DNA from: Candidatus Bathyanammoxibius amoris
GTDB lineage: Bacteria > Planctomycetota > Brocadiia > Brocadiales > Bathyanammoxibiaceae
NCBI GenBank assembly: GCA_024451685.1
Contig: JAMXCW010000006.1
Span: forward strand, 69,218-133,217
Direction of reading: 5' to 3'
DNA length: 64,000 bases
The translations under genes and the position numbers were made by a program. This document shows positions 10 to 10,131 of this stretch, piece by piece. The notes under the pieces were generated by a model, which was not told where the DNA came from, searched no databases, and worked only from the letters and a program-made list of their open reading frames with translations. The number at the start of each line of letters is the position of its first letter. Within the stretch, counting starts at the first letter, position 1.

Positions 10-117
10 TTACGCCAATACGCGGTTTTCTGCGTTATCCGGTATCTTTAGGTCAAAACCGTCCTGTATGTTATCGGCCAATCTCTTTACCGCCTCTGGT
101 TCGGGGGTCCGGCTTCA
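10..117 (-). other. In-frame open extension after the TGA of CNBD copy 1
   Basis: Reading on past the TGA at 115-117 in the same frame gives 34 sense codons to a TAA at 10-12. The inferred peptide includes PEPEAVKRLADNIQDGF and KIPDNAENRVLA, charged and amphipathic like real protein. It does not match the C-terminal tail of the two paralogues. It may be a nonsense-interrupted tail, a remnant of another fused sequence, or chance. No selenocysteine-type hairpin could be assessed by eye. Confidence 0.35.
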
Positions 118-486
118 GACCATCTCGTTTGTCTTTTGCAGTCTGATAGCCATGCTTGCCATCACCTTCTGGAGGAAGGGGGGAAGTTCGTCGTAGTACT
201 TCTTGCAGTGTTCCTTGTCTATTATTACCACCTCGCACTCCGTGCGTGCTTCGGCCGTCGCGGTGCGCGGGAGACCCTCGCCGAGTATGGCGCGTTCGCC
301 GAGGAATTCTCCGTCACTTACCTTGCCCAGCTTTACACGCTCTCCGTCAACCTCCTTGAATATGTCAAGCGTGCCGCTCTCTATGTAGAACATCTCGCTG
401 GCAATGCTACCCTCCTTAAAGAGGATCTCTTTCGGCTGGAGAATCTTTACTTTGGCGCCCTCGAAACTGATATCAGCAAACGTCAT
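115..486 (-). CDS. Cyclic nucleotide-binding domain protein, copy 1 (short)
   Basis: A stand-alone CNBD (cNMP-binding beta-roll, Crp/PKA-regulatory fold) of 123 aa with no DNA-binding helix-turn-helix. The roll runs from about residue 10 to 115. The phosphate-binding cassette region reads GEFLGERAILGEG then RTATAEA, close to the canonical GE...R(T/S)A pattern. A strong ribosome site (GAGGAG) precedes the ATG at 486. It is clearly paralogous to the genes at 725-1201 and 5519-6007 but ends early at a TGA right after the conserved QKTNEMV, so it lacks the ~35-residue C-terminal helix of the other two. The same frame stays open for 34 codons after that TGA (see 10-117). The ligand (cAMP, c-di-GMP or other) cannot be told from sequence. 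Probably a cytosolic nucleotide sensor. Confidence 0.85.
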   Translation of the reverse strand: MTFADISFEGAKVKILQPKEILFKEGSIASEMFYIESGTLDIFKEVDGERVKLGKVSDGEFLGERAILGEGLPRTATAEARTECEVVIIDKEHCKKYYDELPPFLQKVMASMAIRLQKTNEMV

Positions 487-559
487 CTTTACTTCTCCTC
501 TTTTTTCGAAATAGTGAATATATTATCCGGGTCTGGTTGAAGAAACAGTTGTGACCTGA

Positions 560-690
560 TGCCCCCTGTCACAATTTAGCGCTCAACACCGTTTCTGCTA
601 CACATGCCGAAGGACCCGAAGACATTATACAACGTAACATATTCCCAGGCAAGGGATACGAAGGCAAAGGGACCTGTCCGGGAACACAAG
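560..690 (-). pseudogene. Decayed 3' remnant of the membrane-protein gene, upstream of CNBD copy 1
   Basis: Translating the minus strand here gives LAWEYVTLYNV before a TAA at about 567. This matches the last part (FAWEYFVMYNF, residues 271-281) of the intact membrane protein at 6099-6980. It lies just upstream of CNBD copy 1, as the intact gene lies upstream of copy 3, so the two-gene unit was duplicated and its first gene then lost. Boundaries are approximate. Confidence 0.6.
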
Positions 691-724
691 ACGAGTGGGA
701 GACAGGAAACACGGTTTTCAATTG

Positions 725-1201
725 TTAAACCGTTCCATGGTGTTCTATACTCTGCATCATGGAACTTTCAAGCAGCTGCATCCGCATGACCAGATCCTTT
801 ATCATCCCCTGCGTACGGGCCATTTTCACAACAATGTCGTTCGTCTGTTGAAGCCTGGTGGCCATTCTCTCAAGCATCTTCTGGATGAAAGGCGGCAGTT
901 GTTCGTAGTACTTTTTGCAGAGCTTCTTGTCTATTACCACTAATTCACAATTTGTAAATGCCTCGGCCGTTGCAGAGCGCGGGAGTTCCTCGCCGAGCAG
1001 GGCGCGTTCACTAATAAACTCCCCGGCACCAACCTCTCCCAGTTTCACACTATTGTTGAGCACCCGCTTGGTTATCACGATGGTGCCACTCTCAACAAAA
1101 TACATCTCGTCGGCAGGGCTCCCCTCATAAAAAAGGATCTCTCCCTGCTTGAGGGTCCTTGACTTAGCACCCTCGAATCTAAAATCAGGAACAATTGCCA
1201 T
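725..1201 (-). CDS. Cyclic nucleotide-binding domain protein, copy 2
   Basis: A 158 aa single CNBD protein. The beta-roll spans about residues 10-118, with a cassette-like GEFISERALLGEE followed by RSATAEA, then a C-terminal amphipathic helix (residues ~120-155) rich in Met, Gln and Leu that may mediate dimerisation or partner contact. GGAGGATAAGAG gives a good ribosome site before ATG 1201. There is no DNA-binding or catalytic domain, so it is likely a regulatory subunit acting on another protein. A frameshifted remnant of the partner membrane-protein gene sits just upstream (1300-1545). Closest relatives in the window are the copies at 115-486 and 5519-6007. Confidence 0.88.
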   Translation of the reverse strand: MAIVPDFRFEGAKSRTLKQGEILFYEGSPADEMYFVESGTIVITKRVLNNSVKLGEVGAGEFISERALLGEELPRSATAEAFTNCELVVIDKKLCKKYYEQLPPFIQKMLERMATRLQQTNDIVVKMARTQGMIKDLVMRMQLLESSMMQSIEHHGTV

Positions 1202-1299
1202 CTCTTATCCTCCCACTTTTAGCAGTGAACATCTCGAGACAGGTCCAGGGTGACCGTTGTACCGAAAACGTTCGTATAATACCTTTGAAGACTAATGCG

Positions 1300-1545
1300 T
1301 GCTTGCGTTCAGCCTGGTGAACGACTTTCAGGGAATTATACATAACAAGATACTCCCAGGCAAGGGGCACAAGGCTAAAGAAACCTGCGGAGGGACCCTC
1401 AAAGGTGTTTACGGTCGGCGTGAAAGATGCGGGGCAGAACCGTCTTGCCGCGGCGCAACAGCACCCGGATTCCCACAGAAACGCGCAGACGGCCCGTCGA
1501 AAGCAGGCAGATAATTCTTTTCAGGACACTTCATTTCACACAGGT
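1300..1545 (-). pseudogene. Frameshifted 3' remnant of the membrane-protein gene, upstream of CNBD copy 2
   Basis: On the minus strand this stretch aligns nearly gap-free with the 3' part of the intact membrane-protein gene (about 6131-6340). It encodes pieces such as LKRIICLL, AFLWES and PLAWEYLVMYNS, equivalent to LERILCLF, GFLWEF and PFAWEYFVMYNF. A frame change near the FLWE segment and loss of everything 5' of it show the gene is dead. Together with 560-690 it shows that the pair was copied more than once. Confidence 0.8.
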
Positions 1546-1547
1546 AT

Positions 1548-1571
1548 GGGCAGACATGGGTTTGTCTGCCC
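1548..1571. repeat. Perfect 9-bp hairpin at the edge of the accessory stretch
   Basis: GGGCAGACA (1548-1556) and TGTCTGCCC (1563-1571) are perfect inverted repeats around a 6-nt loop. It is followed on the plus strand by CCGTTTAAC, a poor T-tract, so a terminator role is only possible. It sits where homology to the duplicated CNBD locus ends. Confidence 0.7.
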
Positions 1572-1605
1572 CGTTTAACGGCAATACAGCCCGGGCATCG
1601 GGGTC

Positions 1606-1632
1606 GGGGCCTTTCCTTTTATAAGGGGCCCC
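1606..1632. repeat. GC-rich hairpin upstream of the nuclease-like gene
   Basis: GGGGCC (1606-1611) pairs with GGCCCC (1627-1632), and CCTT with AAGG inside it, leaving a small TTT bulge and a TTAT loop. It lies just before the promoter at 1668-1696. A T-run occurs only about 30 nt downstream (1661-1666), so it is not a classic terminator. Confidence 0.55.
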
Positions 1633-1667
1633 AACGTTCTGCTGATGTTGCCTCCTACCCTTTTTTC

Positions 1668-1696
1668 TTGACTCCGCTTCCTGCTAGTAATACATT
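1668..1696 (+). promoter_or_regulatory. Sigma-70-type promoter of the nuclease-like gene
   Basis: TTGACT (1668-1673), a 17-nt spacer, then TACATT (1691-1696). The spacer contains CTTCCTGCTAGTA, which recurs in the promoter of the TPR gene (5006-5034, minus strand) at the same place between the same hexamers. This puts the start codon of the downstream gene after about 1703. Confidence 0.6.
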
Positions 1697-1769
1697 TGTC
1701 ACAAGAGGAGCCTACCAAAGAAGTACACTTGCAATAAGACGCTGGACTGGTCAGTATTACTTGAAACTT

Positions 1770-2501
1770 ATGAATACCAATCGAAATAAAAACCGAGGTT
1801 TAGAAGAATCTATCAAACGTGCTGAAAAAGGCGAATTTAGAGAATATTGGTTACAATTATATGTCAAAGCTAATTATAAGAAACTTGAATTCGATGATCT
1901 TGAAGGGCCGTTTGAACATGGCTATGATTTTAAAGGGATTTATAAAGGAAAAAGGGTAATCATTGAAGTAGAACGAAGCTCTAGAAATTTCGTTGGTCAT
2001 GGGCATAATCCAAAAGAAGTAGACATATTAATCATTCTTAATGATGACGATACAGATAGGTCCTTATTACCAAAGAAGATAATCAAAATAGATTCAAAGG
2101 ATTTTGTCCTGGCAACTCATGAACGGCGGAGAGACTATGCAATAGAAAAGCAAAAAGATATAGAAGTATTCTTCAAGATGCTTCCATTTAATCTTATAAA
2201 GAAGGCTCTTGCAACCCTATGGCATCTTTTAATTGAAGAAATTCCAAGTGAAGACACTCCTGAATCTGATATATTCGAAGAAGCCTTGAAGTCTACTACT
2301 TTCCAATACATCAAGTTTTATGATATTAACTTAGAAGATTTAAGAGAGCAGGGAGGAGGAAGGAGAGTTACCAGATTAGAATGTCTAGTAAATGACCTTA
2401 TGAAATCGAATAGAAAGATCGATTACTTAACAAGTGAAGAAAACGAATTCATTAGATTATGGATAGAGGCCCTACGTAAAGAATACAGTTCACGGATATA
2501 G
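1770..2501 (+). CDS. Putative PD-(D/E)XK-type nuclease or related protein of unknown function
   Basis: A 243 aa cytosolic protein, not assigned to a named family. I chose ATG 1770 because the promoter at 1668-1696 excludes the longer frame; its ribosome site is weak. Residues ~51-68 (GYDFKGIYKGKRVIIEVER) show an acidic residue (D53), a beta-hairpin-like stretch, then E66-x-E68, resembling the PD-(D/E)XK core but with Glu in place of the usual Lys. NPKEVDILIIL follows, a beta-strand typical of this fold. The C-terminal half is helical and charged. Codon use is distinctly AT-rich compared with most of the window, which suggests acquisition. No methylase or toxin/antitoxin partner is adjacent, so a restriction or defence role is only a guess. 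Confidence 0.65.
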   Translation: MNTNRNKNRGLEESIKRAEKGEFREYWLQLYVKANYKKLEFDDLEGPFEHGYDFKGIYKGKRVIIEVERSSRNFVGHGHNPKEVDILIILNDDDTDRSLLPKKIIKIDSKDFVLATHERRRDYAIEKQKDIEVFFKMLPFNLIKKALATLWHLLIEEIPSEDTPESDIFEEALKSTTFQYIKFYDINLEDLREQGGGRRVTRLECLVNDLMKSNRKIDYLTSEENEFIRLWIEALRKEYSSRI

Positions 2502-2540
2502 AGAAGCAATTGAAGAGAGTGACTCGTTTCATGCGCAGAC

Positions 2541-2597
2541 CACCTTCCCTTAGCTCATAACCTTAAAGAATAAGGATTAAACTATATATAACGTGCT
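2541..2597 (+). repeat. ~57 bp dispersed repeat, copy A
   Basis: First of three near-identical copies (others at 3787-3842 and 5368-5425). Each begins CACCTTCCCTTAGCTCATAA (first base variable), has a central CCTTA...TAAGG inverted repeat around a 5-nt A-rich loop, and ends near TATATATAACGT. All three are in the same orientation and in gaps between genes. Confidence 0.85.
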
Positions 2598-2665
2598 ATC
2601 CTTGTGCCGCCAGGCAGGGGATATAACACCTGGACTGGTGCTGAGCTTAAGTAACCTTCCCCTTT

Positions 2666-3541
2666 TTATTCACCCGCTTCCCACAAGATTTTTGGACGAA
2701 GCCGGCGAGCATTGTATTTCTTCTCCCATTCTCTCATTTGACCAGTACTTATAAGATAATCAATAGAGGTGTTTAAGAAATTTAAGAACTCTTGGTCATT
2801 CTGCTTAACTGCCCACCCAACCGGCATTATGTTGTAGGGACGGTCTGCGAACAAATCGGTCACTACTTCAGGATATTCTCTAGCAAACTGAAAGGTTGTC
2901 CATGAATCTGCAAGACCAACATCTGCTCGACCAGCGATAACTTCTGTCAGAGGTTCAGATAAGTCTGCAGTAGATACCACTATCAGTTCGGCTTTTCCAA
3001 GGTATGTTCTTGCATATTCATGGCTTGTTTCTCCTTGTGCTACTGCAATTTTAATTCCCTCCTTATTGAAATCTTCGATAGTAGTAAAACGACCATTGCC
3101 ATTTCTTATAATAGCACCATTTCCGATATAAATAATTGGCTTTGTGAAAGCAACCTCCATAGCACGAGGTATAGTTCTATATGTTGCTCCAATAGATAGC
3201 TCAAATTGGCCCGACTGCAATCCACTCATGAATGTGGCCCATGTAGTTTCTACAAATTCTACTCTTACCTCCGATACCTCTGCTATAAATCTGACGGCGT
3301 CAACAAAGTACCCGGAAAGTTCTCCTGTTTCTGGGTCTTTTATAATTGTAGGAGGATACACCACGTAGCCTACCTTTAGAACGCCTTCATTATAAATCTT
3401 CTGCAGGGTTCCTCCCGCCGACCTTGAGGAGTTGCCGCTCGGAGATTCCTGTTTGCACCCTGTTGTAGACATCAAATATGTTGTAAGCAGGATGATTAAC
3501 AAGTAGTTTAGTTTATTCACAATGTTTCGATGTGTCTGCAT
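2666..3541 (-). CDS. Extracytoplasmic solute-binding lipoprotein, family 3 (amino-acid type)
   Basis: A 291 aa type-3 periplasmic binding protein. The N-terminus has a basic start, a hydrophobic segment (residues ~12-25) and a lipobox STTGC with Cys29 as the probable lipidated residue. Typical motifs follow: GVLKVGYVVYPPTII, PETGELSGYFVDAVRFIAE, and GADVGLADSWT-like sequence in the second lobe. The ribosome site AAGGAAG precedes the ATG at 3541. No permease or ATPase gene is nearby, so this is an orphan receptor that may deliver ligand to a distant ABC transporter or serve a sensor. It sits in the AT-rich accessory stretch between repeat copies A and B. The ligand cannot be told. Confidence 0.85.
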   Translation of the reverse strand: MQTHRNIVNKLNYLLIILLTTYLMSTTGCKQESPSGNSSRSAGGTLQKIYNEGVLKVGYVVYPPTIIKDPETGELSGYFVDAVRFIAEVSEVRVEFVETTWATFMSGLQSGQFELSIGATYRTIPRAMEVAFTKPIIYIGNGAIIRNGNGRFTTIEDFNKEGIKIAVAQGETSHEYARTYLGKAELIVVSTADLSEPLTEVIAGRADVGLADSWTTFQFAREYPEVVTDLFADRPYNIMPVGWAVKQNDQEFLNFLNTSIDYLISTGQMREWEKKYNARRLRPKILWEAGE

Positions 3542-3680
3542 TTCATTTTTTCTTCCTTAAAGTTACTTATTTGTAATACGAGGCGTTCTTTTAGAACGGT
3601 GTAATAATACCAAAAGGGCTTCTAAAGTTTAAGGGAAAATAGGCGACTTCAGATCAAACGCCAAGCGCTTGATTCTATTA

Positions 3681-3713
3681 GGGGTTGTGGGGAGTGGCTC
3701 TCTCCATGACCCC
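3681..3713. repeat. Long hairpin element, copy 1
   Basis: GGGGTTGTGGGGAG (3681-3694) can pair along its full 14 nt with CTCTCCATGACCCC (3700-3713) if three G-U wobbles are allowed; the loop is TGGCT. The flanks (TTA before, GCTTAT after) match those of the second copy at 4042-4073. Wobbles replacing Watson-Crick pairs suggest function as plus-strand RNA. Confidence 0.65.
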
Positions 3714-3786
3714 CGCTTATTTGAGGATATTTTAGTGTGTTTACTTGACAGTTACTTGCCAGTCATGATGAAGGGGGCGGCAGGCT

Positions 3787-3842
3787 ACCTTCCCTTAGCT
3801 CATAATCTTAAAGAATAAGGATTAAACTATATATAACGTTCT
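3787..3842 (+). repeat. ~57 bp dispersed repeat, copy B
   Basis: Same element as 2541-2597, differing at a few positions (for example AATCTTA for AACCTTA and ACGTT for ACGTG at its end). It lies between the lipoprotein and TPR genes. Confidence 0.85.
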
Positions 3843-4041
3843 GATGGTGTACCGTCCATTCCCTATCCTGAACGTATCTACGTAGCTCTGAGAGTTGCAG
3901 GCCGGGGTCTTGCTCTTGGGTAGATACCCTTGCGTAAATCGCTACTTTGGTGGGTTTCATTGTACTTGCCTTTTCTGCGGAGCAGCTTTATATTAAGAAT
4001 CAGGCAGTTACGGGTTGCTCTGCGATTACCGTACCTGCTTA

Positions 4042-4073
4042 GGGGTGTTGGGTATCTAGCTACCTAACGCCCC
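4042..4073. repeat. Long hairpin element, copy 2
   Basis: GGGGTGTTGGGTA (4042-4054) pairs over 13 positions with TACCTAACGCCCC (4061-4073), two of them G-U wobbles; the loop is TCTAGC. The stem sequence differs from copy 1 (3681-3713) but the outer GGGG/CCCC, the upstream TTA and the downstream GCTTTAT are shared, so the two look homologous with the fold preserved. Confidence 0.65.
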
Positions 4074-4172
4074 GCTTTATTAACTCTCAAGGAGTATACC
4101 ACACGTCTTTAATTATGCAAGCGTACTTCTAGCGTGTCTCCGTCTATTACCCTGCTGAAAAGCCCTTCACTT

Positions 4173-4982
4173 TCAATATCCACGCTTCCTCCGATAGAGC
4201 ACATCCAGAAGTTCACTTGCCGGTTTGTTGTTTGGGTCTAGCAACAGAGCTTGCTCGGTATGCCTTATCGCAAGGCCATTCTGGCCCTTCAGACTGTACA
4301 TCACGCCCAGGTAATAGTGTGCATCCGCATAATCGGGCTTGAGGAGTATGAACTCCTTGTACTGCCTTATTGCCAGGTCATACAGGCCCTTCTTGCCGTA
4401 GACCATGCCCAGGCTATAGTATGCCTCTGCATAATCCGGCTTTGTGCGTATGGCCTCCTTGTACTGCCTTATTGCCAGGTCGTACAGGCCCTTCCGGCCG
4501 TACGCGAAACCCAGGGTAAAGTGTGCCCCTGCTAAATCTGGCTCTAGGCGTATTACCTCCTTGAACTGCCTTATAGTCAGGTCGTACAGGCCCTTCTGGG
4601 TGTACACCAAGCCCAGGTTATAGTGTGCCCCTGCATAATCTGGCTTTATGCGTATTGCCTCCTCGTACTCTTTTATTGCTAAGTCGTACTTCTTCTCGTT
4701 ATAATACGAGTTACCCAGCACATAATGCTCTTCAGCGCTACTCAATGATTCTGGCGTTTCTGAATCTGCTGTAGATAACTTACCGTTTTTATCGAAGGCC
4801 GCTATTAACACCACTGTATCTCCGTACTCCTTTGCTATCTCTTCTGGGGATTTCTCACTGCTAAGCCAGCCAGCTTGGCTAACAGACGGCAGAAATTGGT
4901 AGGATACAAGATTAGTGAAGAGAACATAGAATAGAACCGTGTGGAAAGTTGACAGGAGATTTTTTGGGCTTGTACTGCTCAT
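4173..4982 (-). CDS. Secreted or membrane-anchored TPR protein with a protease-like N-terminal relic
   Basis: A 269 aa protein. A hydrophobic N-terminal segment (residues ~13-32) ending near SVSQAGW suggests a signal peptide or anchor. Residues ~82-253 are five tandem 34-residue tetratricopeptide repeats of the AxAHYxLGxxYxxKGxYDxAIRQYKEAIRxxPDY type, a protein-interaction scaffold. Between them, IAKEYGDTVVLIAAFDKNGK (44-68 region) looks like the first strands of an HtrA-like trypsin domain, but the catalytic part is absent and the TPRs follow almost at once. It has its own promoter (5006-5034) and ribosome site GAGGGTG. Repeats are highly similar at DNA level, so repeat number may vary among strains. 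The partner is unknown. Confidence 0.82.
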   Translation of the reverse strand: MSSTSPKNLLSTFHTVLFYVLFTNLVSYQFLPSVSQAGWLSSEKSPEEIAKEYGDTVVLIAAFDKNGKLSTADSETPESLSSAEEHYVLGNSYYNEKKYDLAIKEYEEAIRIKPDYAGAHYNLGLVYTQKGLYDLTIRQFKEVIRLEPDLAGAHFTLGFAYGRKGLYDLAIRQYKEAIRTKPDYAEAYYSLGMVYGKKGLYDLAIRQYKEFILLKPDYADAHYYLGVMYSLKGQNGLAIRHTEQALLLDPNNKPASELLDVLYRRKRGY

Positions 4983-5005
4983 TGTTTTGCACCCTCTAAT
5001 GTGGG

Positions 5006-5034
5006 AAGGTACTACTAGCAGGAAGGGTTGTCAA
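5006..5034 (-). promoter_or_regulatory. Sigma-70-type promoter of the TPR gene
   Basis: On the minus strand TTGACA (5034-5029), a 17-nt spacer containing CTTCCTGCTAGTA, then TACCTT (5011-5006). The expected transcript start gives a leader of less than 20 nt that still contains the GAGGGTG ribosome site. The spacer core is shared with the promoter at 1668-1696. Confidence 0.55.
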
Positions 5035-5367
5035 GCCTACATTCTGTGGGCTTTTGTAGACCTCCTACACCCCAAAAACTGCTTTTTTTGGGAAGAAACT
5101 CTGCCCTACCCGACCAATACCACCCTAAACCAATCCAATGTCCTTGAAACCTAAGACTCTCTTAGGCAAAACAGCCTTAAAATCGATTCTGGCGGGTGGG
5201 TGTCTGTTAAATTTCGGGGCCTCTCGTGCTGCTTATCAAATCCTCCGGTCACCTTTAGATTGACTTATTCCCGCCTCAAAGAGTAATATCTGCATATAGC
5301 CGAACGGAACCGTACGGCAGCCACTGCAGTACTAACTTAAATACTGATACTTTGAGTGGGGGTAAGT

Positions 5368-5425
5368 CACCTTCCCTTAGCTCATAACCTTAAAAAATAA
5401 GGGGTTAAACCATATATAACGTGCT
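5368..5425 (+). repeat. ~57 bp dispersed repeat, copy C
   Basis: Third copy of the element at 2541-2597. Its central stem has changed to AACCTTA...TAAGGGGTT, keeping an inverted repeat. It lies about 90 bp from the 3' end of CNBD copy 3 and so marks the other edge of the accessory stretch. Confidence 0.85.
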
Positions 5426-5518
5426 CAGGGTTAATACCCGCCACAAAATTAGTGCGGGAAGGGGGACAGGGGGTATCGGTCAGTGAAATCGCGCATTGTC
5501 AACCCGTCTCGTGACGTT

Positions 5519-6007
5519 CTATACCCTCCGATGTTTTATGCCGTGATGTTCCAGGCTCTCCAGCATGGAGCCCTCAAGCTCCTGCATCTTTACGGCCATT
5601 TCCTTCACCATCTCTTGTGTGTAAATCAGCTTCACAACCAGCTCGTTCGCCTGTGTGAGCCTTCTGGCCATCCTCGTTATCATCTTCTGGATGAAGGGGG
5701 GAAGGTCATCGAAGCACTTCTTGCACTGCTTCTTGCCTATCACCACTACCTCGCATTCGGTGTTTGCCTCGGCCGTTGTGACGCGTGCCGCCCCTTCACC
5801 AAGTATGGCCCGCTCGCTGAGGAACTCTCCTTCATTTGCCTCCCCGATTTTTATGATCTTGTCCTGAACCTCCCTCGTTAGCGAAAGCGAGCCGCTCTCG
5901 ATGTAGAACATCTTGTCAGCAATACTTCCCTCTTTATAGAGGATGTCTCCCGGATTGAGAACTTTTACCGTCGCACCTTCGAAGCTAATATCGATAACGT
6001 TAGCCAT
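5519..6007 (-). CDS. Cyclic nucleotide-binding domain protein, copy 3
   Basis: A 162 aa single-CNBD protein, the only copy with an intact partner gene. The beta-roll spans residues ~10-118 with GEFLSERAILGEG and RVTTAEA in the cassette region; here the residue before TTAEA is Val where the paralogues have Thr or Ser, a possible change in ligand preference. A C-terminal amphipathic helix (120-160) carries KMQELEGSMLESLEHHG, similar to copy 2. Strong ribosome site AGGAGGAG before ATG 6007. It lies 91 bp downstream of the membrane-protein gene (6099-6980) on the same strand. Likely a regulatory subunit that binds a nucleotide and acts on the membrane protein; this link is inferred from conserved adjacency only. 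Confidence 0.88.
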   Translation of the reverse strand: MANVIDISFEGATVKVLNPGDILYKEGSIADKMFYIESGSLSLTREVQDKIIKIGEANEGEFLSERAILGEGAARVTTAEANTECEVVVIGKKQCKKCFDDLPPFIQKMITRMARRLTQANELVVKLIYTQEMVKEMAVKMQELEGSMLESLEHHGIKHRRV

Positions 6008-6098
6008 CTCTTACTCCTCCTATTTAGATGGTAAACACCCCTGTACAGGCCAAAGGCGGCCTTGTACCTGGATATTCTTTGTAACGCCCTCAAAGATT

Positions 6099-6980
6099 TT
6101 AGCACGGACCGGTATTACGCCTGATGAAAAGCCTTACAAAATTATACATCACAAAGTACTCCCAGGCAAACGGGCCAAAACCAAAAAAACCCGCCAGGGG
6201 CATCTCAAATATCTTTACACCCGCCGTAAAGGGTGCGATATATACCCACTTCGCGGCGGCCCAGTAGTTCCAGAATTCCCACAAGAAGCCGCAGATATAG
6301 CCCGCCACAAAAAGACAGAGAATCCTTTCCAGGAACCCTTCCTCCAGGTTCTTGAGCAGTGAGTTGCCACCGCTTGAATACACTACAGGGTCCAGCAATA
6401 TCACAAAGCCCGTCCACACAAACGCAAACAGATAACGGGCGTGATGCTGGCTGACCAGGAGCGGTATTATCAGGAAAAGGAAACCAAGCACCATGCCGCC
6501 GTAAACGATCCTGTTTGTTACCCGGAGCGGAGACGTTTTAAACCCCTGGAAGACCTTGAGGGTCGCCAGCAGTTCTGCCGTCTGGAATATTCCCGGCATT
6601 ATGGTCGCAAAGGACAGGGCCAGTCCAAGATTGCGTATTACGAGGTTCTCCGGCAGGCCATGATACTCCCAGTTCTGGAGGTGCAGGTTGTATATCTCAA
6701 AGATCAGCCAGAACCCTATTGAAAGCGGCAGTTGCAGGAAGAATTCGCCCGTCCTCGTACTTATGAGCGAGCTGCCCTTGAGTCTGAAGATTACGGCGTC
6801 CACGAAGAGTATGTAGCCCCACCAGCAGATGGGAGTCGTCCATACGCTGATTGTTCTGGCGATGGGGTATTCGTTCTGCAGTATAAGCGCTGACTCGGCT
6901 GCCAGTATAAGGCCGAGCCCAATCCACCCATAGCCTTTGAAGCGGCCCCCGCCGGCGATGGAGTGTGCGGACTCTCTCAC
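6099..6980 (-). CDS. Polytopic membrane protein with an internal duplication, function unknown
   Basis: A 293 aa integral membrane protein with about eight hydrophobic segments, starting at GTG 6980 (ribosome site AGGGAA). I do not recognise the family. Two halves resemble each other: residues ~54-131 (DAVIFRLKGSSL, then GFWLIFEIYN and NWEY) and ~189-270 (DPVVYSSGGNSLL, then GFLWEFWNYW and KWVY). Shared positions include Asp61/Asp197, SSL/NSLL, the GF-W pairs and the W-x-Y after them; the conserved polar and aromatic residues inside membrane segments suggest a binding site or channel. It starts 24 bp after the M16 pair ends and is followed by CNBD copy 3, so co-transcription is likely. Remnants of its 3' end occur at 560-690 and 1300-1545. 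Confidence 0.82.
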   Translation of the reverse strand: MRESAHSIAGGGRFKGYGWIGLGLILAAESALILQNEYPIARTISVWTTPICWWGYILFVDAVIFRLKGSSLISTRTGEFFLQLPLSIGFWLIFEIYNLHLQNWEYHGLPENLVIRNLGLALSFATIMPGIFQTAELLATLKVFQGFKTSPLRVTNRIVYGGMVLGFLFLIIPLLVSQHHARYLFAFVWTGFVILLDPVVYSSGGNSLLKNLEEGFLERILCLFVAGYICGFLWEFWNYWAAAKWVYIAPFTAGVKIFEMPLAGFFGFGPFAWEYFVMYNFVRLFIRRNTGPC

Positions 6981-7004: not shown

Positions 7005-8495
7005 CTATTGTGCCGGTTCCAGTTCCAGCACGTTGACCTTCCCAAAGTCGTTGAGGGGACGGTCAAACTTGTCCTCGTCTCCCACTACAAGGATGATTAT
7101 TTTATCGGGATGGAGGTATTTCTTTGCCACTTTCATCAAGTCTTCTCTGGTAACGGCCTTTATGTTGTCCACATAGGTGTCCAGGTAATCAAGGGGCAGG
7201 CCCTTATATTCTATATCCACCATGTGGCTTACTATGGCGCCGCTGGTAGTGAAGAGGAAGATAAACTGATTTATGAAGGTGTCCTTTGCACCGTTGAGCT
7301 CGTCATCGCTCACGGGCCTTTGTTTTATCCTCCGAATCTCTTCCAGTATAAGTTCTATGGCCCTTGAGGTGGACTCGACCTTGGTCTGACACGAGACAAA
7401 GAAGAACCCTAGATCCCTCGGGGTATGGAACGCGCTGTAGACGGAGTAGGCAAGCCCCTCCTCGTCTCTTACCTTTTTGGGTATCCTGGCCGTGAAACTG
7501 CCCTCCCCCAGGATAAAGCTCATCAGCTTAACGGCGAAGTAGTCCGGGTTTGTCCTCTCAATCGCGATGTTACCGAGGAGGATGGTGGACTGGTTCAAGT
7601 CTTTGTCGACGTAGTTCACGGAGAGTTCCGTTTCTTTGTCGACCTTTGGCACATGTGGAAAGTCTATCTTCTCCTTTTCCCATCCACTGAAGACCTTTTC
7701 GAGCTTCCGTAACATCTCCGCCGTGTCAAAGTCGCCAGAGATGCCCATAATCATGTTGTTGGGATGGAAGAATTTGTTATGGAAGGCTATCATGTCTTCT
7801 CTGGTAATCCTTGGAATCGTATCGGCGTAGCCGTTGACCTTCCGGTTGTAAGGATGTGGTTCGTACAGGAGCTTGCGGAACTCCCTGAAGGCTATCTGGG
7901 TAGGGTCGTCGTTTTCTCTTCTTATGGATTCAAGGACCTCTTCCTTTCTCTGCTCAATCTTGTCTTCGGGGAACGCGGGGTGCCTCAGTATGTCAGCAAA
8001 GATTTCCAGTGTCTTGTCCAGGTCCTTTGTCATTACGGAGAGCCCGATGGAGCCTTCCTCCCTGCCGATACTCGTCTCAACCGAGGCGGCCATGTATTCA
8101 AGTTCCCTGTTAATCTCTTCGGCGCTCATGTTCGTCGTCCCGCCCGAACGCATCACGTACCCGGTGAGGGACGCCAGACCGGCCTTGTCCGCGGGTTCGT
8201 AAATGGAGCCCGTTCTCACTGCCGCCGTTATGTTCACCAGGGGGAGTTCGTGGTCCTCCAGCATAAACAGTATCATCCCGTTGGGGAGCACCCTGCGTTC
8301 CACCCTAGGGGGCGACCACACAAGCGGCTCATATTTGAACTTTGACACAATCTTCGCGCCCTTTGACTGGGGCTCCGTAAGGGCCGCGCCCTTTCCGGGC
8401 ATCGCGTGCTGCGCGTGCGCGTAGCCGCCGAGCAACACGGACACGACCAGGGCAAGGGCTATAATCACGACGTTCCGGAATCCGTTTCTCCTCAT
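7005..8495 (-). CDS. M16 peptidase family, non-catalytic subunit
   Basis: A 496 aa secreted protein of the pitrilysin/insulinase-like M16B family with a signal peptide (residues ~8-28, ending near AHAQH). It has the M16 fold (PNGMILFMLEDHELPLVNITAAVRTGSIYEP) but at the place of the zinc motif HxxEH it reads SLTGYVM, so it cannot bind the catalytic zinc. C-terminal features such as LGNIAIERTNPDYFAVKLMSFILGEG and the EEGLAYSVYS segment fit the substrate-binding R/Y subunit of heterodimeric M16B enzymes. It begins 2 bp after the catalytic subunit gene (8498-9988), so the two are surely co-translated. Acts outside the cytoplasmic membrane; substrates unknown. Confidence 0.92.
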   Translation of the reverse strand: MRRNGFRNVVIIALALVVSVLLGGYAHAQHAMPGKGAALTEPQSKGAKIVSKFKYEPLVWSPPRVERRVLPNGMILFMLEDHELPLVNITAAVRTGSIYEPADKAGLASLTGYVMRSGGTTNMSAEEINRELEYMAASVETSIGREEGSIGLSVMTKDLDKTLEIFADILRHPAFPEDKIEQRKEEVLESIRRENDDPTQIAFREFRKLLYEPHPYNRKVNGYADTIPRITREDMIAFHNKFFHPNNMIMGISGDFDTAEMLRKLEKVFSGWEKEKIDFPHVPKVDKETELSVNYVDKDLNQSTILLGNIAIERTNPDYFAVKLMSFILGEGSFTARIPKKVRDEEGLAYSVYSAFHTPRDLGFFFVSCQTKVESTSRAIELILEEIRRIKQRPVSDDELNGAKDTFINQFIFLFTTSGAIVSHMVDIEYKGLPLDYLDTYVDNIKAVTREDLMKVAKKYLHPDKIIILVVGDEDKFDRPLNDFGKVNVLELEPAQ

Positions 8496-8497
8496 CC

Positions 8498-9988
8498 CTA
8501 AGCCCCTTTCTTCTTCTGAATTAACGTGCCCACGTTGCGGTTTGTTTTAATGAAATATTTCTTCGCCACCCTCATGACGTCTTCTCCGGTGACGGCTTTT
8601 ATCCTTTCTACAGCCGTGTTTATGTAGCTCCAGCCACCGGCAACGGCCTCGTAATAGCCTATCTCGTCGGCCAGGCCGGAGTTGGACTCTAAACCTCGAA
8701 TGAAATTGGCCTCGAGCTGGTTCTTTATCTTCTGGAGTTCCCAGTCCGAGGGCGGCTCGGTCTTGAGCCTCTCCAGCTCTTCATATACCGCCTTTTCCAC
8801 TTCCCCGGTGGTGTGCGGGTGGCGGGGACTCGCGAAGACAAAAAACAGGTCCGGGTACTTCGAACCCCCGGCATAGCTCCTCACCATTACCGCGATCCTC
8901 TCGTCTTCTATCAGCCTCTTGTAGAGGCGGGACGTCCTGCCGCTGGTAAGAAGGCTCTCTATCACGTCGAAGACGTACTGGTCGGGGTGCGTGATATTCG
9001 GCTTGTGGTAGCCGACGGCCACCATCGGGTTCGCGTCGTACTCCACTTCTATCCTGCGTTCGCCCTTCTGCTCCGGCTCCAGGGTGGTTACCCCGGGGAT
9101 GGGCGGCTGGGCGGGGATGTCGCCAAAATATTCCTCTACAAGGTCGATTACCTGTTGCGGGTTTATGTCTCCGACCACGACGATTACCGCGTTATTGGGC
9201 GCGTAATACCGGGTAAAATATTTCTCCGTCTCTTCTTTCGTAATGTTTTCTATGTCCGACATCCAGCCTATGGTGGGCCAACCGTAGGGATGGGCGGTGA
9301 AGGCCGCTGCGTTTAACTGCTCAAACAGGAGGCCGAACGGACTTGTCTCCGTGCGCATCCTCCTCTCCTCCATTACCACGTCCTTTTCGGAATAGAATTC
9401 GCGGAGCACCAGGTTCTTCATCCTGTCCGACTCCAGAAAGGCCCATAGTTTCAGTTTATTGGCCGGCAGGTTACAGTAGTAGCGGGTGATGTCATCACTT
9501 GTTGAGGCGTTTATACCCGTGGCCCCGTTTCTCATGTATATGGCCCAGAACTCCTCGGTGTTCGTAATCTCCTGGAGCCTCTTTCTTACCCCCGCAAGCT
9601 CGTTCTCCAGTGCAACCCTCTCTGCCTCATCGTCCGTGGCTTCGATGGCCAGCACCAGCTCGTCTTCTTTTTCAAGAAGGGGTTTCTCTTCTTCCCAGTC
9701 CTTTGTGCCGAAAAGCTGTGTGCCTTTGAACATCATGTGCTCGAAGAGATGGGAGGCGCCGGTGATGCCCGGACGCTCGTTTACCGAACCGACCTTAAAG
9801 ACTATTCTTACAGAGACCGTGGGGCTCTGGTGTTTTTCGAGCATCAGCAGCGTCATACCGTTCTTCAGGACGTGCTCCTTGGCGTCCAGCCTCAGCTCCT
9901 GGGCGTTGAGGGTGGCTGCGTGCAGAAAGAAAGTCAACAGGACAGTGAAAATTATCATGCAGTTCCTGTGGTTTTTCATGATCTTCAT
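8498..9988 (-). CDS. M16 zinc peptidase, catalytic subunit
   Basis: A 496 aa secreted zinc metallopeptidase of family M16. I chose ATG 9988 (upstream AGAAAGAA) because it starts a clean signal peptide (residues ~10-29, ending LNAQE); a longer frame would add an unlikely 28 aa. The inverted zinc motif HLFEH lies at residues 80-84 (H80, E83 catalytic, H84) with the downstream EERRMRTE glutamate region completing the site. An insertion of about 60 acidic residues (DWEEEKPLLEKEDELVLAIEATDDEAER) follows the zinc motif, a coiled-coil-like addition seen in some M16B members. Its partner at 7005-8495 lacks the zinc motif. Together they likely form a periplasmic peptidase heterodimer. Confidence 0.94.
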   Translation of the reverse strand: MKIMKNHRNCMIIFTVLLTFFLHAATLNAQELRLDAKEHVLKNGMTLLMLEKHQSPTVSVRIVFKVGSVNERPGITGASHLFEHMMFKGTQLFGTKDWEEEKPLLEKEDELVLAIEATDDEAERVALENELAGVRKRLQEITNTEEFWAIYMRNGATGINASTSDDITRYYCNLPANKLKLWAFLESDRMKNLVLREFYSEKDVVMEERRMRTETSPFGLLFEQLNAAAFTAHPYGWPTIGWMSDIENITKEETEKYFTRYYAPNNAVIVVVGDINPQQVIDLVEEYFGDIPAQPPIPGVTTLEPEQKGERRIEVEYDANPMVAVGYHKPNITHPDQYVFDVIESLLTSGRTSRLYKRLIEDERIAVMVRSYAGGSKYPDLFFVFASPRHPHTTGEVEKAVYEELERLKTEPPSDWELQKIKNQLEANFIRGLESNSGLADEIGYYEAVAGGWSYINTAVERIKAVTGEDVMRVAKKYFIKTNRNVGTLIQKKKGA

Positions 9989-10131
9989 TTTCTTTCTATC
10001 TTGTATTTTGCGTATAATTGATAACAGTCTCAAGGATTCTGCAAAATTTTGCAAATACCAACCATACGTCATGTCATTCTTCGGTCAAAAAACTCAGAAT
10101 GACAATTATACAGGTCTTTCGAGATGTCGTT

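Follow-up and report, generated by a model that had tools for sequence, protein, structure and literature searches.

Tandem duplication and decay of a membrane protein gene beside CNBD sensor genes in Candidatus Bathyanammoxibius amoris

Introduction

The window is a 64,000 nucleotide stretch of a Candidatus Bathyanammoxibius amoris contig. It contains three genes for proteins with a cNMP-binding domain (CNBD), each downstream of either an intact gene for a membrane protein (termed Mem) or a decayed 3′ piece of that gene. The earlier note read this arrangement as a two-gene module, copied three times, in which the CNBD protein regulates Mem. The locus raises the question of whether CNBD and Mem are functional partners, or whether they are neighbors that were duplicated together and have since had separate fates.

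Results and Discussion

Layout of the locus

All three CNBD paralogues are on the minus strand and their open reading frame coordinates are confirmed, as is the intact Mem open reading frame (Table 1).

Table 1. Features of the Mem-CNBD locus, in positions of the window
Feature	Position	Strand	Description and evidence
CNBD1	115–486	−	truncated, 123 aa, without the C-terminal helical tail; PF00027 E-value = 1.6e-19
Mem remnant upstream of CNBD1	~624–676	−	short, decayed (SLAWEYVTLYN); weak protein score and DNA matches
CNBD2	725–1201	−	intact, 158 aa; PF00027 E-value = 9.6e-19; 78% identity with the Mem-adjacent CNBD of G008
Mem remnant upstream of CNBD2	1202–1535	−	3′ piece (from nt 637, residue ~213) and adjoining spacer; protein score and DNA similarity
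Insertion between CNBD2 and Mem-CNBD3	1633–5470 (boundaries approximate)	.	lineage-specific; SBP_bac_3 and TPR open reading frames, recombinase-like fragment, three 63-nt repeats
CNBD3	5519–6007	−	intact, 162 aa, adjoins intact Mem; PF00027 E-value = 8.6e-16; dN/dS 0.20 against G008 copy B
Mem	6099–6980	−	intact 293 aa open reading frame; 8 TM; two homologous 4-TM repeats, residues ~10–146 and 147–293
M16 peptidase 2	7005–8495	−	conserved neighbor; PF05193 E-value = 2.4e-43; synteny
M16 peptidase 1	8498–10072	−	conserved neighbor; PF05193/PF00675; synteny

No stretch comparable to the insertion is present in the syntenic loci L011, L012 and L014. The 63-nt direct repeats within it (2535–2597, 3780–3842 and 5362–5424) separate single-gene blocks in a cassette-like manner and have no further copies elsewhere in the 2.07-Mb assembly. 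They were considered as integron attC sites, but folding gave no support for this and showed no attC-like fold. A short open reading frame at 3808–3960 looks by eye like a serine recombinase N-terminus (YARVSTQEQ) and is probably a mobile-element fragment. Inverted repeats of 30 nt, 83% complementary, are found near both sides of the insertion at 1667–1696 and 5006–5035.

The CNBD proteins

The CNBD proteins score 58–70 bits against the PF00027 profile (gathering score 27.5). This is the sole significant match in Pfam and NCBIfam scans, and neither an HTH nor any further domain was detected. The NCBIfam CRP/FNR models match the N-terminal half only, and far below the cut-off. The best PDB matches are PKA-R, PKG and CRP; the sensor half aligns with CRP residues 28–135, and the CRP-like helix is lengthened by ~30 residues. 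E65 and R75, which supply the cassette Glu and Arg for phosphate binding, do not vary among 12 paralogues and orthologues and by alignment are equivalent to E72 and R82 of CRP.

As judged from these alignments, the CNBD protein is a sensor of CRP-like type that lacks a DNA-binding domain. Most likely it senses cyclic nucleotides as a dimer, where both nucleotide binding and dimerization are predicted properties. It shares with stand-alone PF00027 proteins of the CRP/PKA-R type the domain, the invariant cassette Glu and Arg, and the CRP-like helix that follows the barrel. It differs in that it lacks any HTH, kinase, channel or enzyme domain and in that the CNBDs here are tandem paralogues in a peptidase cluster. 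The sensor half is also like that of CRP/FNR transcription factors, however the C-terminal DNA-binding domain of these is absent.

One class III cyclase was detected in the genome of Ca. B. amoris, and none in G003, G005, G006, G007 and G008, several of which are incomplete genomes. Because of these absences the ligand, and even nucleotide dependence, is uncertain. The single cyclase gene detected (G000:C5:37659-40256) is ~2 kb from another CNBD gene.

Relationships among the CNBD paralogues

The genome has four close CNBDs, the three in the window and one on contig C25. The latter has 65% identity with CNBD2, and neither Mem nor a detectable Mem remnant is found beside it. In a tree, CNBD2 adjoins the Mem-adjacent copy A of the related genome G008, and copy B of that genome forms a group with CNBD1 and CNBD3; thus the duplications are older than the split from G008. 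The CNBD that is beside intact Mem differs between the two genomes, i.e. CNBD3 in Ca. B. amoris and the CNBD2 orthologue in G008, which is consistent with later rearrangement or with reciprocal loss of Mem.

CNBD1 ends with a stop codon at TNEMV-TGA, and remnants of the tail are found downstream. The same stop recurs in a decayed third copy in G008, whose tail remnants lie in a different frame, thus the truncation of CNBD1 looks to be shared. Pairwise dN/dS values of the CNBDs are 0.06–0.27. The values of truncated CNBD1 (0.23–0.27) may include constraint that dates from before the truncation, and the value of 0.06 for G005 against G009 comes with a dS above 1.

Duplication and decay of Mem

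The remnants of Mem that the earlier note described upstream of CNBD1 and CNBD2 differ in clarity. The one before CNBD2 is clear: it scores 136 against Mem, where the maximum in 200 dinucleotide shuffles is 65. At the DNA level it corresponds, together with the spacer, to Mem from nt 637 to the 3′ end, and it has 69.7% identity over 340 nt with the Mem-CNBD stretch of G008. The remnant before CNBD1 is short and near noise by score, at 51 against a shuffle maximum of 47 and an opposite-strand control of 42. It is nevertheless upheld by its DNA matches, which are 53 nt at 75% to G008 Mem nt 788–840 and 54 nt at 78% to the Mem remnant of CNBD2.

The Mem-CNBD segment has thus undergone tandem duplication, after which the extra Mem copies decayed. 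In the window only 3′ parts of the extra copies survive. In G008, however, the gap that precedes CNBD copy B retains not only the 3′ end of the gene but also Mem nt 460–489 (30 nt, a weak match), thus the original duplicates probably extended beyond the 3′ end. From these partial copies we infer full-length duplication, i.e. a full triplication of Mem. The proposal of a segment copied three times therefore stands as a tandem duplication, and so does the statement that the CNBD genes have outlived their Mem partners, given that Mem copies were lost and CNBDs retained. Its other part, a regulatory module of two genes, does not fare as well when other genomes are compared.

Mem and CNBD in other genomes

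Relatives of Mem are encoded in 310 genome stretches. The best 80 of the 310 have 42–83% identity and come from Planctomycetes, Deltaproteobacteria, Acidobacteria, Chloroflexi, KSB1, Zixibacteria and other phyla. An automated scan found a small CNBD beside Mem in L011, L012 and L014 only. To these is added G007, which is apparently the same contig as L013 and where a longer overlapping open reading frame hid the CNBD from the scan. In L037 and L065, larger CNBD-containing proteins are encoded near Mem on the opposite strand.

Within the order, 42 of 62 genomes have a Mem match. Six of these matches are in the GTDB family of Ca. B. amoris: five genomes have intact Mem and in all five CNBD adjoins it, and the sixth is a remnant in G009. 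In the 36 Mem-matching genomes of the order that are outside the family, no CNBD match (E-value 1e-12) was found near Mem, and this CNBD was not beside Mem at the loci examined in other phyla. The conserved neighborhood across genomes that a CNBD-Mem module would call for is therefore confined to one family, and the literature has yielded nothing relevant on such a pairing. A related small CNBD gene is located between nuoI and nuoJ of a complex I operon in another genome of the order (G025, L127 789-1190); this match contains one TAG.

Three members of the family, G005, G006 and G009 (93%–96% complete), have kept CNBD while Mem is missing from the locus and was not detected intact in the genome. 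The G009 remnant, residues 250–288 with one in-frame stop, is directly upstream of its CNBD. Since CNBD is under purifying selection in these genomes, it serves a function independent of Mem, and control of Mem is not its main purpose. Loss of Mem with retention of CNBD, together with an adjacency limited to one family, shows that the two are not a dedicated pair.

These results bear on the model in which CNBD is a regulatory subunit of Mem, the two forming a ligand-controlled membrane protein of two polypeptides, with the extra CNBDs acting in trans on the single Mem. That Mem, where intact in the family, adjoins CNBD in five of five genomes is in its favor, as is the co-duplicated DNA, which covers parts of both genes. 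However, CNBD is constrained where intact Mem is undetected, which action in trans on a remaining Mem cannot explain, and Mem elsewhere in the order and in other phyla lacks this neighbor; the model is thus unlikely. A CNBD encoded near a membrane protein is also seen with cyclic-nucleotide-gated channels of the MloK1 and HCN type, however Mem is a separate protein, is mostly without a CNBD, and shows neither a Pfam ion-channel match above cut-off nor a Foldseek match in PDB for a pore or voltage-sensor fold.

The peptidase cluster

In contrast to Mem, the peptidases are constant neighbors. The gene order M16-M16-Mem-CNBD-C11 is found in L011, L012 and L014, and the same order without Mem in G005, G006 and G009 (one M16 was seen in G006). 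At all of the syntenic family loci that were examined, M16 and C11 (clostripain) peptidases lie on either side of the module, and the order is kept across several genera of the family. In G010, 4 bp separate the CNBD stop from the C11 start, an operon-like spacing. Outside of the family Mem has no generally conserved neighbors, and these differ from lineage to lineage.

The reading we favor, although tentatively, is a family-specific cluster of five genes in which the Mem-CNBD segment was duplicated in tandem and surplus Mem copies decayed. CNBD would be a dimeric sensor composed of a CRP-type beta-barrel with the Glu/Arg cassette and a long C-terminal helix. It would act by protein contact, most plausibly on the adjacent envelope peptidases, with C11 as the first candidate and M16 as the second, and would not be a regulator dedicated to Mem. 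Mem is an independent, widespread integral membrane protein of two 4-TM repeats. The proposed link of CNBD to the peptidases comes from gene order alone, and no account of control of M16 or C11 peptidases by CNBD proteins was found in the literature. The five of five adjacency could, in addition, still reflect a functional link to Mem.

A further possibility, which we hold with some doubt, is that CNBD and Mem are neighbors by descent in the peptidase cluster with no functional link. The duplication would then have copied a part of the cluster, with selection on CNBD dosage or divergence alone. The narrow phylogenetic range of the pairing, the differing Mem neighbors in other lineages, the decay of extra Mem copies and the lone paralogue on C25 all fit neutral hitch-hiking of this kind, but the persistence of gene order across genera and the operon-like CNBD-C11 spacing argue against it and for the favored cluster model.

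The Mem protein

The earlier note had called Mem unrecognized, and profile searches bear this out: Mem and 57 homologues give only sub-threshold noise in Pfam and NCBIfam, and a PDB sequence search with Mem gave no match. The AF2 model is confident (mean pLDDT 93.5) and displays 8 TM. Foldseek found no match for the full model in PDB and viral libraries or for the C-terminal half in PDB, the best E-values being above 1.

The two halves of Mem match each other (hhalign probability 96.4, E-value = 1.4e-9), which reveals an internal duplication of 2 × 4 TM. There are 33 invariant columns in 57 Mem sequences. The residue pairs W53/W189, S71/S207, E95/E235, N98/N238, W104/W245, Y106/Y247 and P110/P250 are fully or almost fully conserved across 57 homologues, and D61 pairs with D/E197. 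Mem is probably an enzyme or transporter in which the paired E, N, W and Y residues would form a pseudo-symmetric site. It is scattered in the phylum, being present in 23 of the 199 genomes sampled, thus its function is accessory. It was not found in a plasmid collection.

A small multi-TM unit in tandem duplicate is also characteristic of the heterodimeric or fused lycopene cyclases (CarR/CrtYcd), whose tandem repeats have a WxY/WxF-loop-P motif. Membership of Mem in this superfamily is suggested by a motif likeness seen by eye, the repeated architecture and a weak hhalign match in the same register. However, profile similarity to Mem is not significant: hhalign probabilities are 0.1%–0.4% (E-values 0.15–0.69) against 17 cyclases, while the cyclase repeats match one another at 96.5%, and there is no NCBIfam match to TIGR03462 in 57 Mem members. 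Such kinship is therefore highly improbable. A CruF-type carotenoid hydratase (PF04240) was also considered and rejected, as 57 Mem proteins show no Pfam match to it up to E 1; PF04240 was likewise not found in 12 Mem-bearing genomes.

In its broadest form, Mem would represent a cross-phylum 8-TM family with a fold unseen among solved structures and the pattern W...D/E...S...E-x2-N...W-x-Y...P duplicated in its 4-TM repeats, which in one bacterial family came under a soluble CNBD sensor together with the neighboring peptidases. Taken as a whole this is an unlikely proposition.

Significance

An apparent two-gene signalling module is here replaced by a testable evolutionary picture of duplication, decay and a sensor outliving its neighbor. 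The part worth following is the unnamed Mem family and not CNBD-Mem regulation. Neither Pfam nor NCBIfam has a model for this family despite its high conservation in many phyla, and its internal repeat provides a handle on the active residues.
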